From NCBI GenBank assembly GCA_014730235.1, contig WJIO01000244.1:1-12651 (forward strand): DNA of 12,651 nt, in the 5' to 3' direction. This document shows, piece after piece, positions 6,000 to 11,457 of this stretch (positions are counted from its first letter, which is position 1; each line of letters opens with the position of its first letter). The notes under the pieces were generated by a model. The model made no database searches. It worked only from the letters and a program-made list of their open reading frames with translations, and was not told where the DNA came from. This DNA is from Candidatus Poribacteria bacterium (GTDB lineage: Bacteria; Poribacteria; DTPJ01; WJIO01). The translations under genes and the position numbers were made by a program.

Positions 6000-7379
6000 A
6001 TGACTGATAATAAAAAAATACCATTCAGCATAAACGGTATAATACCAGGTCTTTCTGTAAAAGCCGATTTAGGCCCACCCAGAAGTGAAAGCGGCATTGG
6101 TGCTTTGGTATATTGGTCTGACAGGCTCTGGATGGTGACTTATGTGTCCCATAAAGCCGGTACTGGTTCGGGTACGGGACTTTATGAAATTGATGAAAAT
6201 CTGAATATGCAAAAGCGTCCTGAAAGCGTTGTAGGAACTTATGCCAACCGCATGGTACATTCCCAGTCAAATCAGCTTATAATAGGGCCACACTTCATTG
6301 ATGCAGACCGGAATGTCAGGACAGTGGATGAATTCAAAGACCATCGTCTGACAGCCACTATGGAGCATCTGTATGATCCCGAAAACATGATTTACTTCCT
6401 TACTATGGAAGGACTTATGTTCGAGGTGGATGTCAACACGCTGAAAATAAAACAGCTTTGTAACCTGGTAAAAGAACTGGATATAAAGCAAAAAGCACAT
6501 TTCAAAGGCGGTCATACAGGTCATTCAAGGGTTGTTGTGGCCAACAACACATACACAGAGGAAGATTTTAGAAGTGTATCTGCCGATGGTCGTCTGGCTG
6601 AATGGGATGGTGATAAATGGACAATTCTGGAAACTAAAGCCTTCAATGAAGTAACAGGACGCAAGAACATGGGCGGCGTTATTTTCGCTACTGGCTGGGA
6701 CAGCGCATCGGCAATACTCAAAGTCTTTACCAAAGGTCAATGGTCAACTTACCGACTCCCCAAGGCAACTCACTGCTTTGACCAATACTGGCAGACAGAA
6801 TGGCCCAGAATTCGGGAGGTAGAGAGCGAACGTTTTCTTATGGATTGTCATGGCATGTTCTACGAAATATCACCCATCGCTTACGAAGGTAAGGTATGGG
6901 GAGTCAGACCAATATCAACACACCTGCGCATTATACCAGATTTCTGCTCGTTTCTCGGTTTCCTGGTTTTGGGTGGTAACCAGTTGACACCTACAGGTGA
7001 TTCAAGTTTAAATGCCGGACAATGCCAGGCCGGACTTTGGTTTGGCAAAACTGATGACCTGTGGAACTTCGGCAAGCCCAAAGGATGGGGAGGGCCATGG
7101 AGGGAAAAGCAGGTTTCAAAAGGTGAAGTATCCAATGCCTACCTGATGACGGGTTTTGAACATAAGGTATTACATCTGTCCCACGATTCCATGGAACCTG
7201 TGGATTTTGCCATTGAGATAGACTTCTTTGGCAACAGCACATGGAAAACCTATGATGTCATATCAGTGACAGCCCGGGGATATGTTCACCACGAATTCCC
7301 GACGGGATTCAGCGCTCACTGGGTTCGGGTTGTAGCCAATGATTCATGCAAGGCCACAGCTTATTTTGTATATACATAG
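6000..7379 (+). CDS. Uncharacterised propeller-like protein, 459 aa
   Basis: I do not recognise a named family. The 459-aa protein has no signal peptide or membrane segment. It shows a recurring pattern of a Gly-hydrophobic strand ending in an acidic residue: GLYEID (60-65), GLMFEVD (138-144), GRLAEWD (197-203), AILKVF (228-233), GMFYEI (275-280) and AGLWFGK (324-330). The 30-80 residue spacing fits a five- to seven-bladed beta-propeller. Residues 350-459 look like a separate beta-sandwich, with FAIEIDFFGNSTW, then YVHHEFPTGFSAHWVRV and ATAYFVY, resembling the tail of discoidin-type domains by eye. His and Cys residues (GGHTGHS 160-166, CHG 273-275, HH 430-431) could serve metal or substrate binding. 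ATG 6000 follows GGGGAA at 5989-5994. Placement 24 bp behind the dehydrogenase suggests a shared pathway, possibly a sugar lactonase- or isomerase-like step, but this is unproven. Confidence 0.8.
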   Translation: MTDNKKIPFSINGIIPGLSVKADLGPPRSESGIGALVYWSDRLWMVTYVSHKAGTGSGTGLYEIDENLNMQKRPESVVGTYANRMVHSQSNQLIIGPHFIDADRNVRTVDEFKDHRLTATMEHLYDPENMIYFLTMEGLMFEVDVNTLKIKQLCNLVKELDIKQKAHFKGGHTGHSRVVVANNTYTEEDFRSVSADGRLAEWDGDKWTILETKAFNEVTGRKNMGGVIFATGWDSASAILKVFTKGQWSTYRLPKATHCFDQYWQTEWPRIREVESERFLMDCHGMFYEISPIAYEGKVWGVRPISTHLRIIPDFCSFLGFLVLGGNQLTPTGDSSLNAGQCQAGLWFGKTDDLWNFGKPKGWGGPWREKQVSKGEVSNAYLMTGFEHKVLHLSHDSMEPVDFAIEIDFFGNSTWKTYDVISVTARGYVHHEFPTGFSAHWVRVVANDSCKATAYFVYT

Positions 7380-7442
7380 TAACTATATTTTCGCATTTTT
7401 CATATATCAAAACGGTAAATACAGATTTCATAAAGATTCTCG

Positions 7443-7484
7443 GCTTGTAGTAGTTACACGGCATGCCGTGTAACTACTACAAGC
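7443..7484. repeat. Perfect 42-bp palindrome without loop
   Basis: Two 21-bp arms meet at 7463/7464 with no spacer and no mismatch. The left arm contains TGTAGTAGTTACACGGCA and the right arm is its exact reverse complement. Symmetry breaks at 7442/7485 (G opposite G). It lies 63 bp after the propeller gene and 137 bp before the permease gene. There is no T run on either side, so an intrinsic terminator is unlikely unless another factor acts. It could be a repeated extragenic palindrome, the trace of a small mobile element, or a protein-binding or cruciform site. Confidence 0.9.
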
Positions 7485-7621
7485 GCATAAATACTATGTC
7501 TTTTAAAAATTGCGAAAGTATAGATAGGAAATTATATGAATATATTGGTAATACTGGAATGAAGGCAGCGCAAATAACTGAAAGTGGACTGGACTGAATC
7601 AGGTTTACATAAGGAATAATC

Positions 7622-9412
7622 ATGTCATCCCAGATAATAATGGTCTTTGCCGTATTGGGAGTTACTATATTTCTTTTTATAAGTGAATTACTCAGGGTGG
7701 ATATTATTGCGATCCTTATTATGATAAGTCTGGCCTGGCTTCGTCTGGTTACTCCATCAGAAGCCTTTGCTGGCCTATCCAGTAACGCCGTAGTATCCGT
7801 CATAGCAGTTATGATAATAGGTTATGGTATAGATAGGTCCGGCGTTATGAAGCGCATTACCCGACCTATAACGAAAATGGCAGGTTCCAGTGAAAAACGT
7901 CTTATTGGTATAGTATCTTCGGCGGTAGCCGGCCTTTCGGCTTTTATGCAGAATATCGGCGCTGCGGCTTTGTTTCTCCCGGCTTTGGTAAGAATCTCCA
8001 AAAACACCAAAATTCCCATATCCCGACTGCTTATGCCAATGGGCTTTGCAGCTATACTGGGTGGAACCCTCAGTATGGTAGGTTCAGGCTCGTTAATAAT
8101 ACTCAACGATCTGTTAAAACAGGGTGGGCAAAAAGCCTTCGGTCTTTTCAGTGTTACACCTATAGGTTTAGTTCTTGTGACTGCTGGTATAGGATATTTT
8201 CTACTTTTTGGCAAAATCATATTACCTTCAAGAAAAGGTGAAGGTGATGAGGTCAATACTCAGCAAAAAATGATAGAGACATGGCAGTTACCGTGCACCA
8301 TATACCAATGCACTGTATCGGAAAACAGCCCGATAATCGGAAAAACCAGAGAGGATATTAAATGCTGGCGAAAATATAATGTAAACCTCCTGGCAATTTC
8401 TGAAGGTGATGATATGCTATATGCCCCTTGGCGATATACAAGATTTGCCGCAGGACAGAAATTGGCTTTCCTGGGTGATATTGAAAACGTTAAACAGCTT
8501 GCGGATGATTTTAAGCTGGATTTTCATGGTGAACCCAGTGATTTTGAAGACCTTCGCAGCGCTGTTGGTGCAGGTTTTGCAGAGGTATTGATCCCACCTC
8601 GATCTTCCATCGCAGGTAAAACAATCAGGGATATTGCCATGAGAAAAAACTACAGTGTTGAACCTATTATGCTGCTGGATAGCAAAACTAAAGAGCGAAG
8701 CGATTTTTCCGATGAGCCGCTAGAAGTAGGTAATGCGATAATAGTTCATGGTTTATGGAGAAACATAAAGGCATTAAAAAACGATAATAATTTTGTGCTG
8801 GCTACTCCTGTAGAATCAGAGGACGTGGACAAATCCAGACCGTTGACCGCTATGTTTTGCTTTCTCGTAGGAATTGGGCTGGCTTTTTCCGGTTTCCCCC
8901 TTTCTGTAAGCCTTTTGACCGGGGCTATAGGGATGATACTATTCAAAGTTATAACTATCGATGAGGCCTATAAAGCCGTTGATTGGCGGACTGTGTTTCT
9001 ACTGGCCGGATTGATACCCCTGGGAACTGCAATGGATAAGACCGGCGCGGCTAAGTTTGTGGCGGATCAGATGATGCAGATATTGCAAGGACAGCATGTT
9101 ATATTGGTTATGATGGCTTTTGGCGTGCTTTCTACTATTTTCTCTCTATTTATGTCTAATGTAGCGGCAACCGTGCTTTTAGTGCCGCTGGTTATGATTA
9201 TGGGAAACATGACTGGTATTAACCCAAGAACGCTGGCCCTTCTTGTTGGGGTTTGTGCATCTAATTCCTTTATTTTACCAACTCATCAGGTCAACGCGCT
9301 GCTTATGTCTCCCGGAGGATATAAAAATTCGGATTACGTTAAAGCCGGGGGAATAATGAGTATATTATTTATTATAATAGCTGTTGGCTTTTTATATTTG
9401 TTTTATTTATAG
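7622..9412 (+). CDS. SLC13/DASS-type anion permease with two TrkA-C domains
   Basis: This 596-aa inner-membrane protein of the SLC13 (divalent anion:sodium symporter / CitMHS-like) family imports dicarboxylates, citrate, sulfate or similar anions, usually with sodium. The N-terminal membrane half spans about 1-200 and includes SAFMQNIGAAALFLPAL (106-122), the family's first substrate hairpin. A soluble insert at about 220-400 contains two TrkA-C (RCK_C) domains, regulatory ligand-binding folds. The first is near SENSPIIGKTREDI, the second near PPRSSIAGKTIRDIAM. The C-terminal membrane half has MSNVAATVLLVPL (511-523) and SNSFILPTHQVNALLMSPGGY (547-567), the second substrate hairpin and conserved tail. 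The two-TrkA-C layout is common among bacterial sulfate-type members, but the anion cannot be assigned. ATG 7622 follows AAGGA at 7611-7615. The gene stands alone, flanked by a 242-bp gap with the palindrome and a 344-bp gap. Confidence 0.92.
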   Translation: MSSQIIMVFAVLGVTIFLFISELLRVDIIAILIMISLAWLRLVTPSEAFAGLSSNAVVSVIAVMIIGYGIDRSGVMKRITRPITKMAGSSEKRLIGIVSSAVAGLSAFMQNIGAAALFLPALVRISKNTKIPISRLLMPMGFAAILGGTLSMVGSGSLIILNDLLKQGGQKAFGLFSVTPIGLVLVTAGIGYFLLFGKIILPSRKGEGDEVNTQQKMIETWQLPCTIYQCTVSENSPIIGKTREDIKCWRKYNVNLLAISEGDDMLYAPWRYTRFAAGQKLAFLGDIENVKQLADDFKLDFHGEPSDFEDLRSAVGAGFAEVLIPPRSSIAGKTIRDIAMRKNYSVEPIMLLDSKTKERSDFSDEPLEVGNAIIVHGLWRNIKALKNDNNFVLATPVESEDVDKSRPLTAMFCFLVGIGLAFSGFPLSVSLLTGAIGMILFKVITIDEAYKAVDWRTVFLLAGLIPLGTAMDKTGAAKFVADQMMQILQGQHVILVMMAFGVLSTIFSLFMSNVAATVLLVPLVMIMGNMTGINPRTLALLVGVCASNSFILPTHQVNALLMSPGGYKNSDYVKAGGIMSILFIIIAVGFLYLFYL

Positions 9413-9607
9413 AACATATTATTGATATTCGGATAAAAAAATATTTTCAGGAGAACACAGGTGTTGTAATTATTACCCCATTATTTATTCAACTTCCATT
9501 ACTGCGAAATTAAATGTTTACATATCCTATTTGCTAAAGTATCTTGATACTTCCCCTAACTGATGCTAAAATATAGGTATGAATTACTTATATTATTATA
9601 TATTTAT
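9413..9607. other. AT-rich spacer after the permease gene
   Basis: No gene is seen. It holds a small inverted repeat (AAGTATC 9537-9543, TT, GATACTT 9546-9552) and strings of TA. No terminator with a clear T tract is visible. The last five bases (TTTAT, 9603-9607) are the left copy of the target duplication of the element that follows. Confidence 0.5.
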
Positions 9608-9731
9608 GTAATCGTTAAAAAATGAATATAATTTAGTTGTCATTCCTGCAAAAGCAGGAATGACAAATTTTGTAATTTACCATCATTATAAAGGTATTTT
9701 CTAAACACATTTTCCATTTTTTAACGATTAC
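9608..9731. mobile_element. MITE-like element, 124 bp, 17-bp TIRs, TTTAT duplication
   Basis: The left end at 9608-9624 (GTAATCGTTAAAAAATG) and the right end at 9715-9731 (CATTTTTTAACGATTAC) are perfect 17-bp inverted repeats. Immediately outside lie identical 5-bp direct repeats, TTTAT at 9603-9607 and 9732-9736, as expected from a target-site duplication. The interior has no reading frame of note but contains a 13-bp-arm hairpin (9637-9666). The layout fits a non-autonomous miniature inverted-repeat transposable element needing a transposase from elsewhere. The IS3 end at the left of this window does not share these termini, and a TTTAT duplication in an AT-rich site could be partly chance. 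It lies in the 5' leader of the deacetylase gene, its end 25 bp before the ATG, so it may supply or alter that gene's promoter. Confidence 0.7.
9637..9666. repeat. Hairpin of the TGTCATTCC type inside the MITE-like element
   Basis: TTGTCATTCCTGC (9637-9649) and GCAGGAATGACAA (9654-9666) are exact complements around AAAA. This resembles the widespread extragenic repeat beginning TGTCATTCC-GC and ending GC-GGAATGACA found in many bacterial genomes. A short T-rich stretch (ATTTTGT) follows, so it might also act as a weak terminator for the permease transcript. Confidence 0.85.
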
Positions 9732-9744
9732 TTTATACAAAATC

Positions 9745-9750
9745 GAGGAA
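9745..9750 (+). promoter_or_regulatory. Shine-Dalgarno for the deacetylase gene
   Basis: GAGGAA lies 6 bases before ATG 9757 and supports that start. It begins only 13 bp past the right end of the MITE-like element, so the leader of this gene is largely made of the insertion. Confidence 0.75.
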
Positions 9751-9756
9751 TTGTAA

Positions 9757-10554
9757 ATGGAACAAATAGATACATATCCCTGGCCGGATAACATCAAAGC
9801 CGCCATATCCCTTAGTTTTGATGATGGACGCCCATCTCAACTAAATGTGGCCATACCTATACTTGATGAATATGGATTAAAAGGCACTTTCTATATAAAG
9901 CCGGGAGGAGATGATTGGAAAACCGTCTATACACCCTGGCGGGAAGTTGCCCAAAATCAACATGAAATCGGAAACCATACCCTCAGCCATATATGTTCAC
10001 GAAACTTTGGATGGAGCGGTCGGGCCCTCGAAACTATATCCCTCGATTATATCGAGTCGGATATACTGGAAGCCGAAGGACGCCTGAGAGAATTAATACC
10101 GGAGCAGACAGAAAGGACGTTCTGCTATCCATGTTACCAGAATTACGTTGGTGAAGGCCTTAAACGTCAAAGCTATGTGCCAATTGTGGCAAAGCATTTC
10201 CCGGCTGCCAGAGGTATGGGTGAAGCAGCGAATCATCCCCTCTATACAGATCTGCATTATCTGACATCCTGGACTGCCGCCGGATGGATGTCAGGAGACG
10301 CGCTTATTGGCTTTGCTGAGGATGCTATTAAAAAAGACAGATGGTGCATAATCACATTTCACGATGTCAGCGAAGTTAAGCCCGATACATGGCTTCCCGG
10401 TGCTTCTTATCACGGCGCGCCGGTTGCAGCTGAAAGTTTCAGGAAATTATGTAAATTCCTTGTTGAAAATAAAGACAAAATATGGACTGGAACAGTACTG
10501 GAATCCGCTGAAAAAACTATAGAATGGCGTAAATCATTTGCAGACCAAAGGTAA
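9757..10554 (+). CDS. Polysaccharide deacetylase (CE4/NodB family)
   Basis: This 265-aa enzyme of carbohydrate esterase family 4 is predicted to remove N- or O-acetyl groups from a polysaccharide or small sugar in a metal-dependent reaction. Motif 1 is SFDDG (20-24), with D22 as predicted base and D23 as metal ligand. Motif 2 is HTLSH (74-78), the two other metal ligands. Motif 3 is RTFCYPCY (120-127), with R120 and P125 in place. The last motif is FHD (201-203), whose His is catalytic. Motif 4 (usually DxxDW) is only hinted at by LTSW near 169-172. There is no signal peptide or membrane anchor, so it probably acts inside the cell, which is unusual for peptidoglycan deacetylases and closer to enzymes acting on soluble or lipid-linked sugars. 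It is followed 9 bp later by era, a surprising partner that may be accidental operon-sharing. Confidence 0.88.
   Translation: MEQIDTYPWPDNIKAAISLSFDDGRPSQLNVAIPILDEYGLKGTFYIKPGGDDWKTVYTPWREVAQNQHEIGNHTLSHICSRNFGWSGRALETISLDYIESDILEAEGRLRELIPEQTERTFCYPCYQNYVGEGLKRQSYVPIVAKHFPAARGMGEAANHPLYTDLHYLTSWTAAGWMSGDALIGFAEDAIKKDRWCIITFHDVSEVKPDTWLPGASYHGAPVAAESFRKLCKFLVENKDKIWTGTVLESAEKTIEWRKSFADQR
10035..10065. repeat. Imperfect hairpin inside the deacetylase gene
   Basis: TATATCC-CTCGAT (10035-10047) pairs with ATCGAG-TC-GGATATA (10051-10065), with a 3-nt loop and a 2-nt bulge. It encodes the TISLDYIESDIL region. It could fold in mRNA, but no function is evident. Confidence 0.6.
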
Positions 10555-10563
10555 TAAAATAAA

Positions 10564-11457
10564 ATGTCAGAAAACAGAGAATTCCGATCAGGATATGTAG
10601 CCCTGATAGGTAGACCAAACGTTGGAAAATCTACACTTTTAAATTCCCTACTGGGAGAGAAACTTTCTATAGTTACACCCAAAGCCCAGACTACCCGAAA
10701 CAGGATTACAGGTATACTCACCGGCAATAATTACCAGATTATATTTCTGGATACTCCGGGAATATTCGATCCCGCATATAGATTGCAGCAGCATATGGTG
10801 AGTAATGCCCTTAGAGCAGCTTCGGAATCAGATCTGCTTGTGCTTATGGCCGAAGCTTTTACGACTCCTGAAAATTTTGAGAAAGAGGTATACAATAGGA
10901 TAAAAGAGCTTAAAAAGAACTGTATACTGGTTATAAATAAGGTAGACCTGATTAACAAAGATAAGCTCCTGCCTCTGATTGAGGCTTATTATAAAAAATT
11001 CGGTTTTGAGGACATAATACCAATTTCAGCTTTAAAAGGCGATGGTGTTAAGGAACTTCTGGATTTAATTATCAAAGCTCTGCCTGTTGGTGGTATGTTT
11101 TATCCTGAAGAGCAAATCAGCGACCTTCCAGAACGATTTTTTATTGCTGAGATAATCAGGGAAAAATTGCTGATGTATACTCAACAGGAAATACCTTACT
11201 CTACAACAGTGCAAGTAGAAGAGGTAAAAGAAAGAAAAAATGGAAGGTTATACATACGAGCCAATATATATGTTGAAAGACCTTCTCAAAAAGGTATTGT
11301 TATAGGCAAAAATGGAAAAATGCTAAAAAAGATCGGTCAGTTTTCCAGAATAGAGATCGAAAAATGGATGGAAGCTCCGGTTTATCTGGACCTATGGGTT
11401 GGCGTTAAACAGGATTGGAGAAAGAAGGAGAGAGAGTTAAACGAACTTGGTTATTAA
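10564..11457 (+). CDS. era: GTPase Era
   Basis: Era is an essential GTPase that binds the 3' end of 16S rRNA and helps mature the 30S ribosomal subunit in the cytoplasm. All signature parts are here: G1 GRPNVGKS (16-23), G2 region TTRNRITG (43-50), G3 DTPG (63-66), G4 NKVD (125-128) and G5 SALKG (155-159). A C-terminal KH domain has the GIVIGKNGKMLKKIG loop (244-258), which binds the rRNA. At 297 aa it has the usual full length. ATG 10564 follows the deacetylase stop by 9 bp, with a modest AAAGG at 10547-10551, 12 bases upstream, inside the end of that gene. The usual rnc/recO-type neighbours are absent here. It is the window's only clear housekeeping gene, indicating a chromosomal location. 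Confidence 0.97.
   Translation: MSENREFRSGYVALIGRPNVGKSTLLNSLLGEKLSIVTPKAQTTRNRITGILTGNNYQIIFLDTPGIFDPAYRLQQHMVSNALRAASESDLLVLMAEAFTTPENFEKEVYNRIKELKKNCILVINKVDLINKDKLLPLIEAYYKKFGFEDIIPISALKGDGVKELLDLIIKALPVGGMFYPEEQISDLPERFFIAEIIREKLLMYTQQEIPYSTTVQVEEVKERKNGRLYIRANIYVERPSQKGIVIGKNGKMLKKIGQFSRIEIEKWMEAPVYLDLWVGVKQDWRKKERELNELGY

Follow-up and report, generated by a model that had tools for sequence, protein, structure and literature searches.

A complete miniature transposable element (MITE) of 124 bp lies just upstream of a polysaccharide deacetylase gene of the CE4 type in a Candidatus Poribacteria bacterium. It occupies positions 9608–9731 (+ strand) of the window, by which we mean the whole stretch of 12,651 nucleotides analysed here, contig C174 of an assembly of 5.53 Mb in 451 contigs (about 92% complete, estimated contamination 4.8%, G+C 0.399). 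We are highly confident of an explanation in which this is a non-autonomous element moved by a transposase of the type encoded on another contig, C228, in which its central hairpin has been amplified together with it, and in which the copy in the window was inserted into the leader of the CE4 gene.

The element and its copies in the genome

The left terminal inverted repeat, GTAATCGTTAAAAAATG (9608–9624, + strand), reappears letter for letter as its exact reverse complement at the right end (9715–9731, − strand), and the two copies of a TTTAT target duplication (9603–9607 and 9732–9736) directly abut these ends in the window. The original prediction had claimed perfect 17-bp terminal repeats, flush TTTAT copies and a length of 124 bp, and every coordinate holds in the sequence; the same is true of the distance of 25 bp between the right end of the element and the CE4 start codon, an ATG at 9757, and of the lack of coding capacity, no open reading frame of at least 80 amino acids being found inside the 124 bp. 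When the window was shuffled 300 times under a first-order Markov model, one shuffle yielded a perfect inverted repeat of 17 bp whose arms lay 20–250 bp apart.

The exact 17-bp end is present in 144 copies (72 + 72) in the genome, against none for the reversed control, and with up to three mismatches the counts are 375 and 48. At least 65 distinct paired elements of 39–266 bp were recovered from about 1.2 Mb of contigs and the loci around matches, a non-random sample, some contigs having been picked for holding ends, and one that makes the census a lower bound. The commonest size is 123–125 bp, with subtypes of 91 bp and 171–174 bp, and full-length copies match the element in the window at 98% identity. 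Exact flush direct repeats of 5–7 bp flank 49 of the 65 elements (29 of 5 bp, 19 of 6 bp and one of 7 bp), where 1.4 would be expected with re-dealt flanks, and the G+C content of these target duplications is 15%. Full-length copies with target duplications of their own are found in both orientations near many unrelated genes, either upstream of or between them. The family consists of dozens of gene-less mobile copies, and the segment in the window is one among them. At another locus (L128 2242–2399) the same ends enclose a different, hairpin-less interior with another inverted repeat, CCCCTTTATTAA / TTAATAAAGGGG.

An empty site, which the original prediction had proposed to look for together with further copies of the ends, is provided by another copy in the same genome. 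The element at L011 1501–1624 interrupts a dispersed repeat, of which six other copies read through the same point with one GATAT only, as would be expected if the element had been inserted there. The MITE reading of the segment in the window is accordingly upheld by copies across the genome, by target duplications, by an IS sharing its ends, described below, and by this empty site. Seeming empty-site matches at L072 and elsewhere were due to neighbouring MITE arms and were left uncounted, and a candidate at L027 was rejected, since it aligned well on one side only. The repeat interrupted at L011, a third dispersed kind, has a further copy of about 100 bp in the window itself (7383–7487), within which lies a perfect 21-bp palindrome (7443–7484, GCTTGTAGTAGTTACACGGCA and its complement).

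Orthologous loci have diverged too far to serve for this comparison. The closest named relatives of the CE4 protein, in five Candidatus Poribacteria MAGs, are 56–60% identical to it, the genes neighbouring it in the window are absent from the DNA examined around these relatives, and their upstream sequence is unrelated, so that an empty site at the window's own locus is not demonstrable. The whole 124-bp MITE was not found in the 39 relatives searched, the nearest of which belongs to another family of the same order while all others share only the phylum, and matches there are limited to the hairpin part or other short stretches; phage records gave no match to the MITE.

A candidate partner IS

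What could have moved these elements? The original prediction had reported no transposase with these ends in the window, and the scan of the window for 17-bp ends beyond the element's own two likewise found none; a transposase gene of which the end lies at 26–373 (integrase core; PF13683, PF13333) bears no relation to the MITE ends. The search that it had suggested for an autonomous IS sharing the ends did find one, on contig C228 (L059 828–2138). This IS is 1311 bp long, both its 17-bp ends are letter-identical to those of the MITE, and it carries an intact frame of 402 amino acids encoding a DDE transposase. The protein scores 31.4 bits against PF01609 (DDE_Tnp_1, IS4/IS5-like; Pfam cut-off 23) and 46.4 bits (E 2.7e-12) against the IS1182 model, a score that falls short of the NCBIfam equivalog cut-off of 270, and it can be described as loosely IS1182/IS5-like. 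Two other pairs of ends were rejected as IS candidates: one of 4200 bp encloses ordinary genes, and one of 1603 bp terminates in a separate 124-bp element.

The G+C content of C228 (0.399) equals the genome value. The IS is nevertheless probably, rather than certainly, part of the same genome, because its flanks (TATAT and ATTAA) form no recognisable target duplication and C228 extends over 14 kb without any of the genome's other repeat families; the contig could be an island or a stray. By eye, it also carries a DDE-transposase-like gene (L249 4340–5053) and large NTPase-like and ATPase-like genes (6779–11359), and it may be a mobile island. A search of 83 further genomes from the phylum detected neither the transposase nor the IS, and no relatives of the transposase were found by peptide patterns in genome and viral contig collections or among solved structures; one relative, 28% identical, is encoded on an Alicyclobacillus plasmid.

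We propose that the C228 transposase, or a lost close relative of it, would bind the common ends and move the MITE. A rather unlikely alternative, though the strongest of those considered, is that the MITE is genuine and its mobiliser a different one, either lost, missing from an assembly that is about 92% complete, or derived from another IS. Consistent with this are the single copy of the IS in the assembly, its lack of a target duplication and the absence of the genome's other repeats from its contig. Past the 17-bp ends, moreover, MITE and IS show no significant similarity: the best arm score was reached by 35 of 500 shuffles, and a derivation of the MITE arms from the interior of the IS was rejected on this ground. 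Against a different mobiliser stand the letter-for-letter agreement of both IS ends with the MITE ends and the intact transposase frame.

The central hairpin and a second MITE family

The hairpin at 9637–9666 has the sequence TTGTCATTCCTGC-AAAA-GCAGGAATGACAA and is terminator-like by consensus scan. The TGTCATTCC-type hairpin described in the original prediction is thus present within the element, and of the two options offered there, a constituent part of the element or one repeat lodged in another, the evidence favours the latter. In 1.18 Mb of sampled sequence we count 149 hairpins of this type, the majority of which adjoin sequence other than the arms of the first MITE family, and being so much commoner outside that family the hairpin appears to be a separate dispersed repeat. 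The TGTCATTCC palindrome would then have entered an ancestral MITE and been amplified together with it.

Many of these hairpins are found at the centre of a second and larger family of MITEs, bounded by GGTTCTTCCGGGTTTAGTGTGG (268 such ends in the sample against one in the control) and mostly 120–164 bp in size, with many exact 8-bp AT-rich duplications; examples are L222 987–1106, L227 16269–16388 and L189 19089–19209. The GGTTCTTCCGGGTTTAGTGTGG ends resemble those of ISL3, and fragments of ISL3 transposases are present on three contigs.

Could the hairpin itself be the mobile unit, akin to REP sequences moved by a Y1/RAYT-type transposase, with the 17-bp ends as bystanders? The hairpins do outnumber the ends, and one Y1_Tnp gene was found. 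The target duplications, however, adjoin the 17-bp ends, and elements of 91, 82 and 67 bp that lack the hairpin still possess both ends and duplications, which makes this reading of the 124-bp unit very improbable. REP-like movement is contradicted for that unit but may still account for how the hairpin itself spread.

Nested and chimeric elements

The two families are also found one inside the other. At L064 505–770 a first-family MITE encloses a second-family MITE with an 8-bp duplication, TCATTTTT, and at L224 6395 and L071 464 the right junction GAAGAACC-TCATTTTTTAACGATTAC is kept while the second copy of the nested unit is absent; the L071 element has a TGAAT duplication of its own. Such junctions are expected if the two hairpins of the nested form recombined and the product moved again, and several chimeric elements look like the outcome of nesting, subsequent recombination at the hairpin and renewed movement. 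The classes of arms are combined across the hairpin in several pairings, one of which is dominant. Within one subfamily the loop is either GAAA or TTTC, and a 173-bp form contains two tandem hairpins, so that deletion between these could give either loop; similarly, the 91-bp form could have arisen by deletion between TTGTCATT and TTGTAATT. In 173-bp subtypes at L062 3084, L072 366, L073 450 and L074 400 the two hairpins flank a CCAG...CTGG middle, which has the opposite orientation in L073.

We tentatively hypothesize, while thinking it rather less probable than its negation, that the common palindrome acts as a recombination hinge. Two unrelated families, one with 17-bp ends and 5–6 bp duplications and the other with ISL3-like ends and 8-bp duplications, would nest and swap arms at the hairpin, and the resulting chimeras would be re-amplified through the first-family ends.

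Position of the copies and the CE4 leader

Copies of the first family are situated between genes and close to their boundaries. Overlaps with open reading frames of at least 150 amino acids involve seven of the 65 elements, at their edges only, against 60% under random placement. Start codons follow 19 of 41 copies at a distance of 15–50 bp, where a null of AT-weighted intergenic placement gives 16% (p ~4e-6), and of 38 copies measured against stop codons 13 are no more than 10 bp away, against 10%; starts were called mechanically, these distances carry error, and target choice and survival are indistinguishable as sources of the bias. The copy in the window falls inside the 15–50 bp cluster, with 25 bp between it and the CE4 ATG, and is therefore typical of its family.

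The CE4 gene (9757–10554, + strand; PF01522) lies downstream of the insertion and is preceded by a Shine-Dalgarno-like GAGGAA (9745–9750, + strand), read from the sequence, that is situated outside the element. The best promoter match, TTGATA-17-TAAAAT with an extended −10 (9544–9572, + strand), lies upstream of the element; it is a candidate by consensus, in a region with six promoter-type matches against 3.4 expected. Given a promoter upstream and a Shine-Dalgarno sequence downstream, the element, inserted at TTTAT between the two, would be transcribed as part of the CE4 leader. The statement in the original prediction that the element probably sets the leader or promoter of the gene is upheld in part, for its position in the leader; the best promoter match points upstream of the element. 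The element would lengthen the leader, probably as a structured piece of it, and may serve as a partial attenuator; such effects on CE4 are predicted from the sequence. A rival reading, of a conserved structured CE4 leader acting as a cis-regulatory RNA whose inverted repeats arose by chance, would suit the probable leader position and the strong fold of the element strand (z = −9.4), yet it is exceedingly improbable in view of the dispersed full-length copies beside unrelated genes with their own target duplications, the absence of the element from the CE4 relatives and the lack of a match to any Rfam family anywhere in the window.

Comparison with known elements

IS-derived bacterial MITEs, including Correia/NEMIS, RUP and ERIC, have been reviewed (PMC2229807), and the first family shares with these a size below 200 bp, terminal inverted repeats, a non-coding and AT-rich sequence, target duplications and presumed mobilisation in trans by an IS that shares these ends. 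It departs from them in its GTAATCG ends and 5–6 bp duplications, where they have TA-type termini, as well as in its separate, abundant central palindrome and its new host lineage. The enclosure of another kind of repeat within a MITE is known from BrickBuilt of Porphyromonas gingivalis (PMC4596501), which is always intergenic; its inner repeat is a 23-bp minisatellite, whereas the one enclosed here is a palindrome, which also occurs by itself across the genome and in a second MITE family. As in Candidatus Thiomargarita nelsonii (PMC4853749), high-copy MITE families inhabit an uncultured bacterium, but there the parent IS is unidentified and genes are interrupted, while here we have a candidate parent and copies between genes. 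The partner transposase is weakly related to the IS1182 family, which is described as heterogeneous and includes IS1272 (PMC5678879). IS1272 reportedly makes no target duplication and replaces inverted-repeat targets (PMC5678879), in contrast to the MITEs described here, which make 5–6 bp duplications at AT-rich sites, although the IS copy itself has none. A literature search combining Poribacteria with such elements found no paper naming both, and matches from a text search with the hairpin sequence were mostly unrelated.

Taken by itself, the element is an ordinary, well-supported MITE with a probable IS partner in a new lineage, and it is of value as a clean case of a MITE and an IS paired in Candidatus Poribacteria. 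The bias of the family towards the last 15–50 bp before start codons could make it a source of variation in the leaders of many genes. The most interesting part of the case is the combination of chimeric elements with a common hairpin: a palindrome held in common by two MITE families provides a testable instance of the exchange of parts among MITEs.
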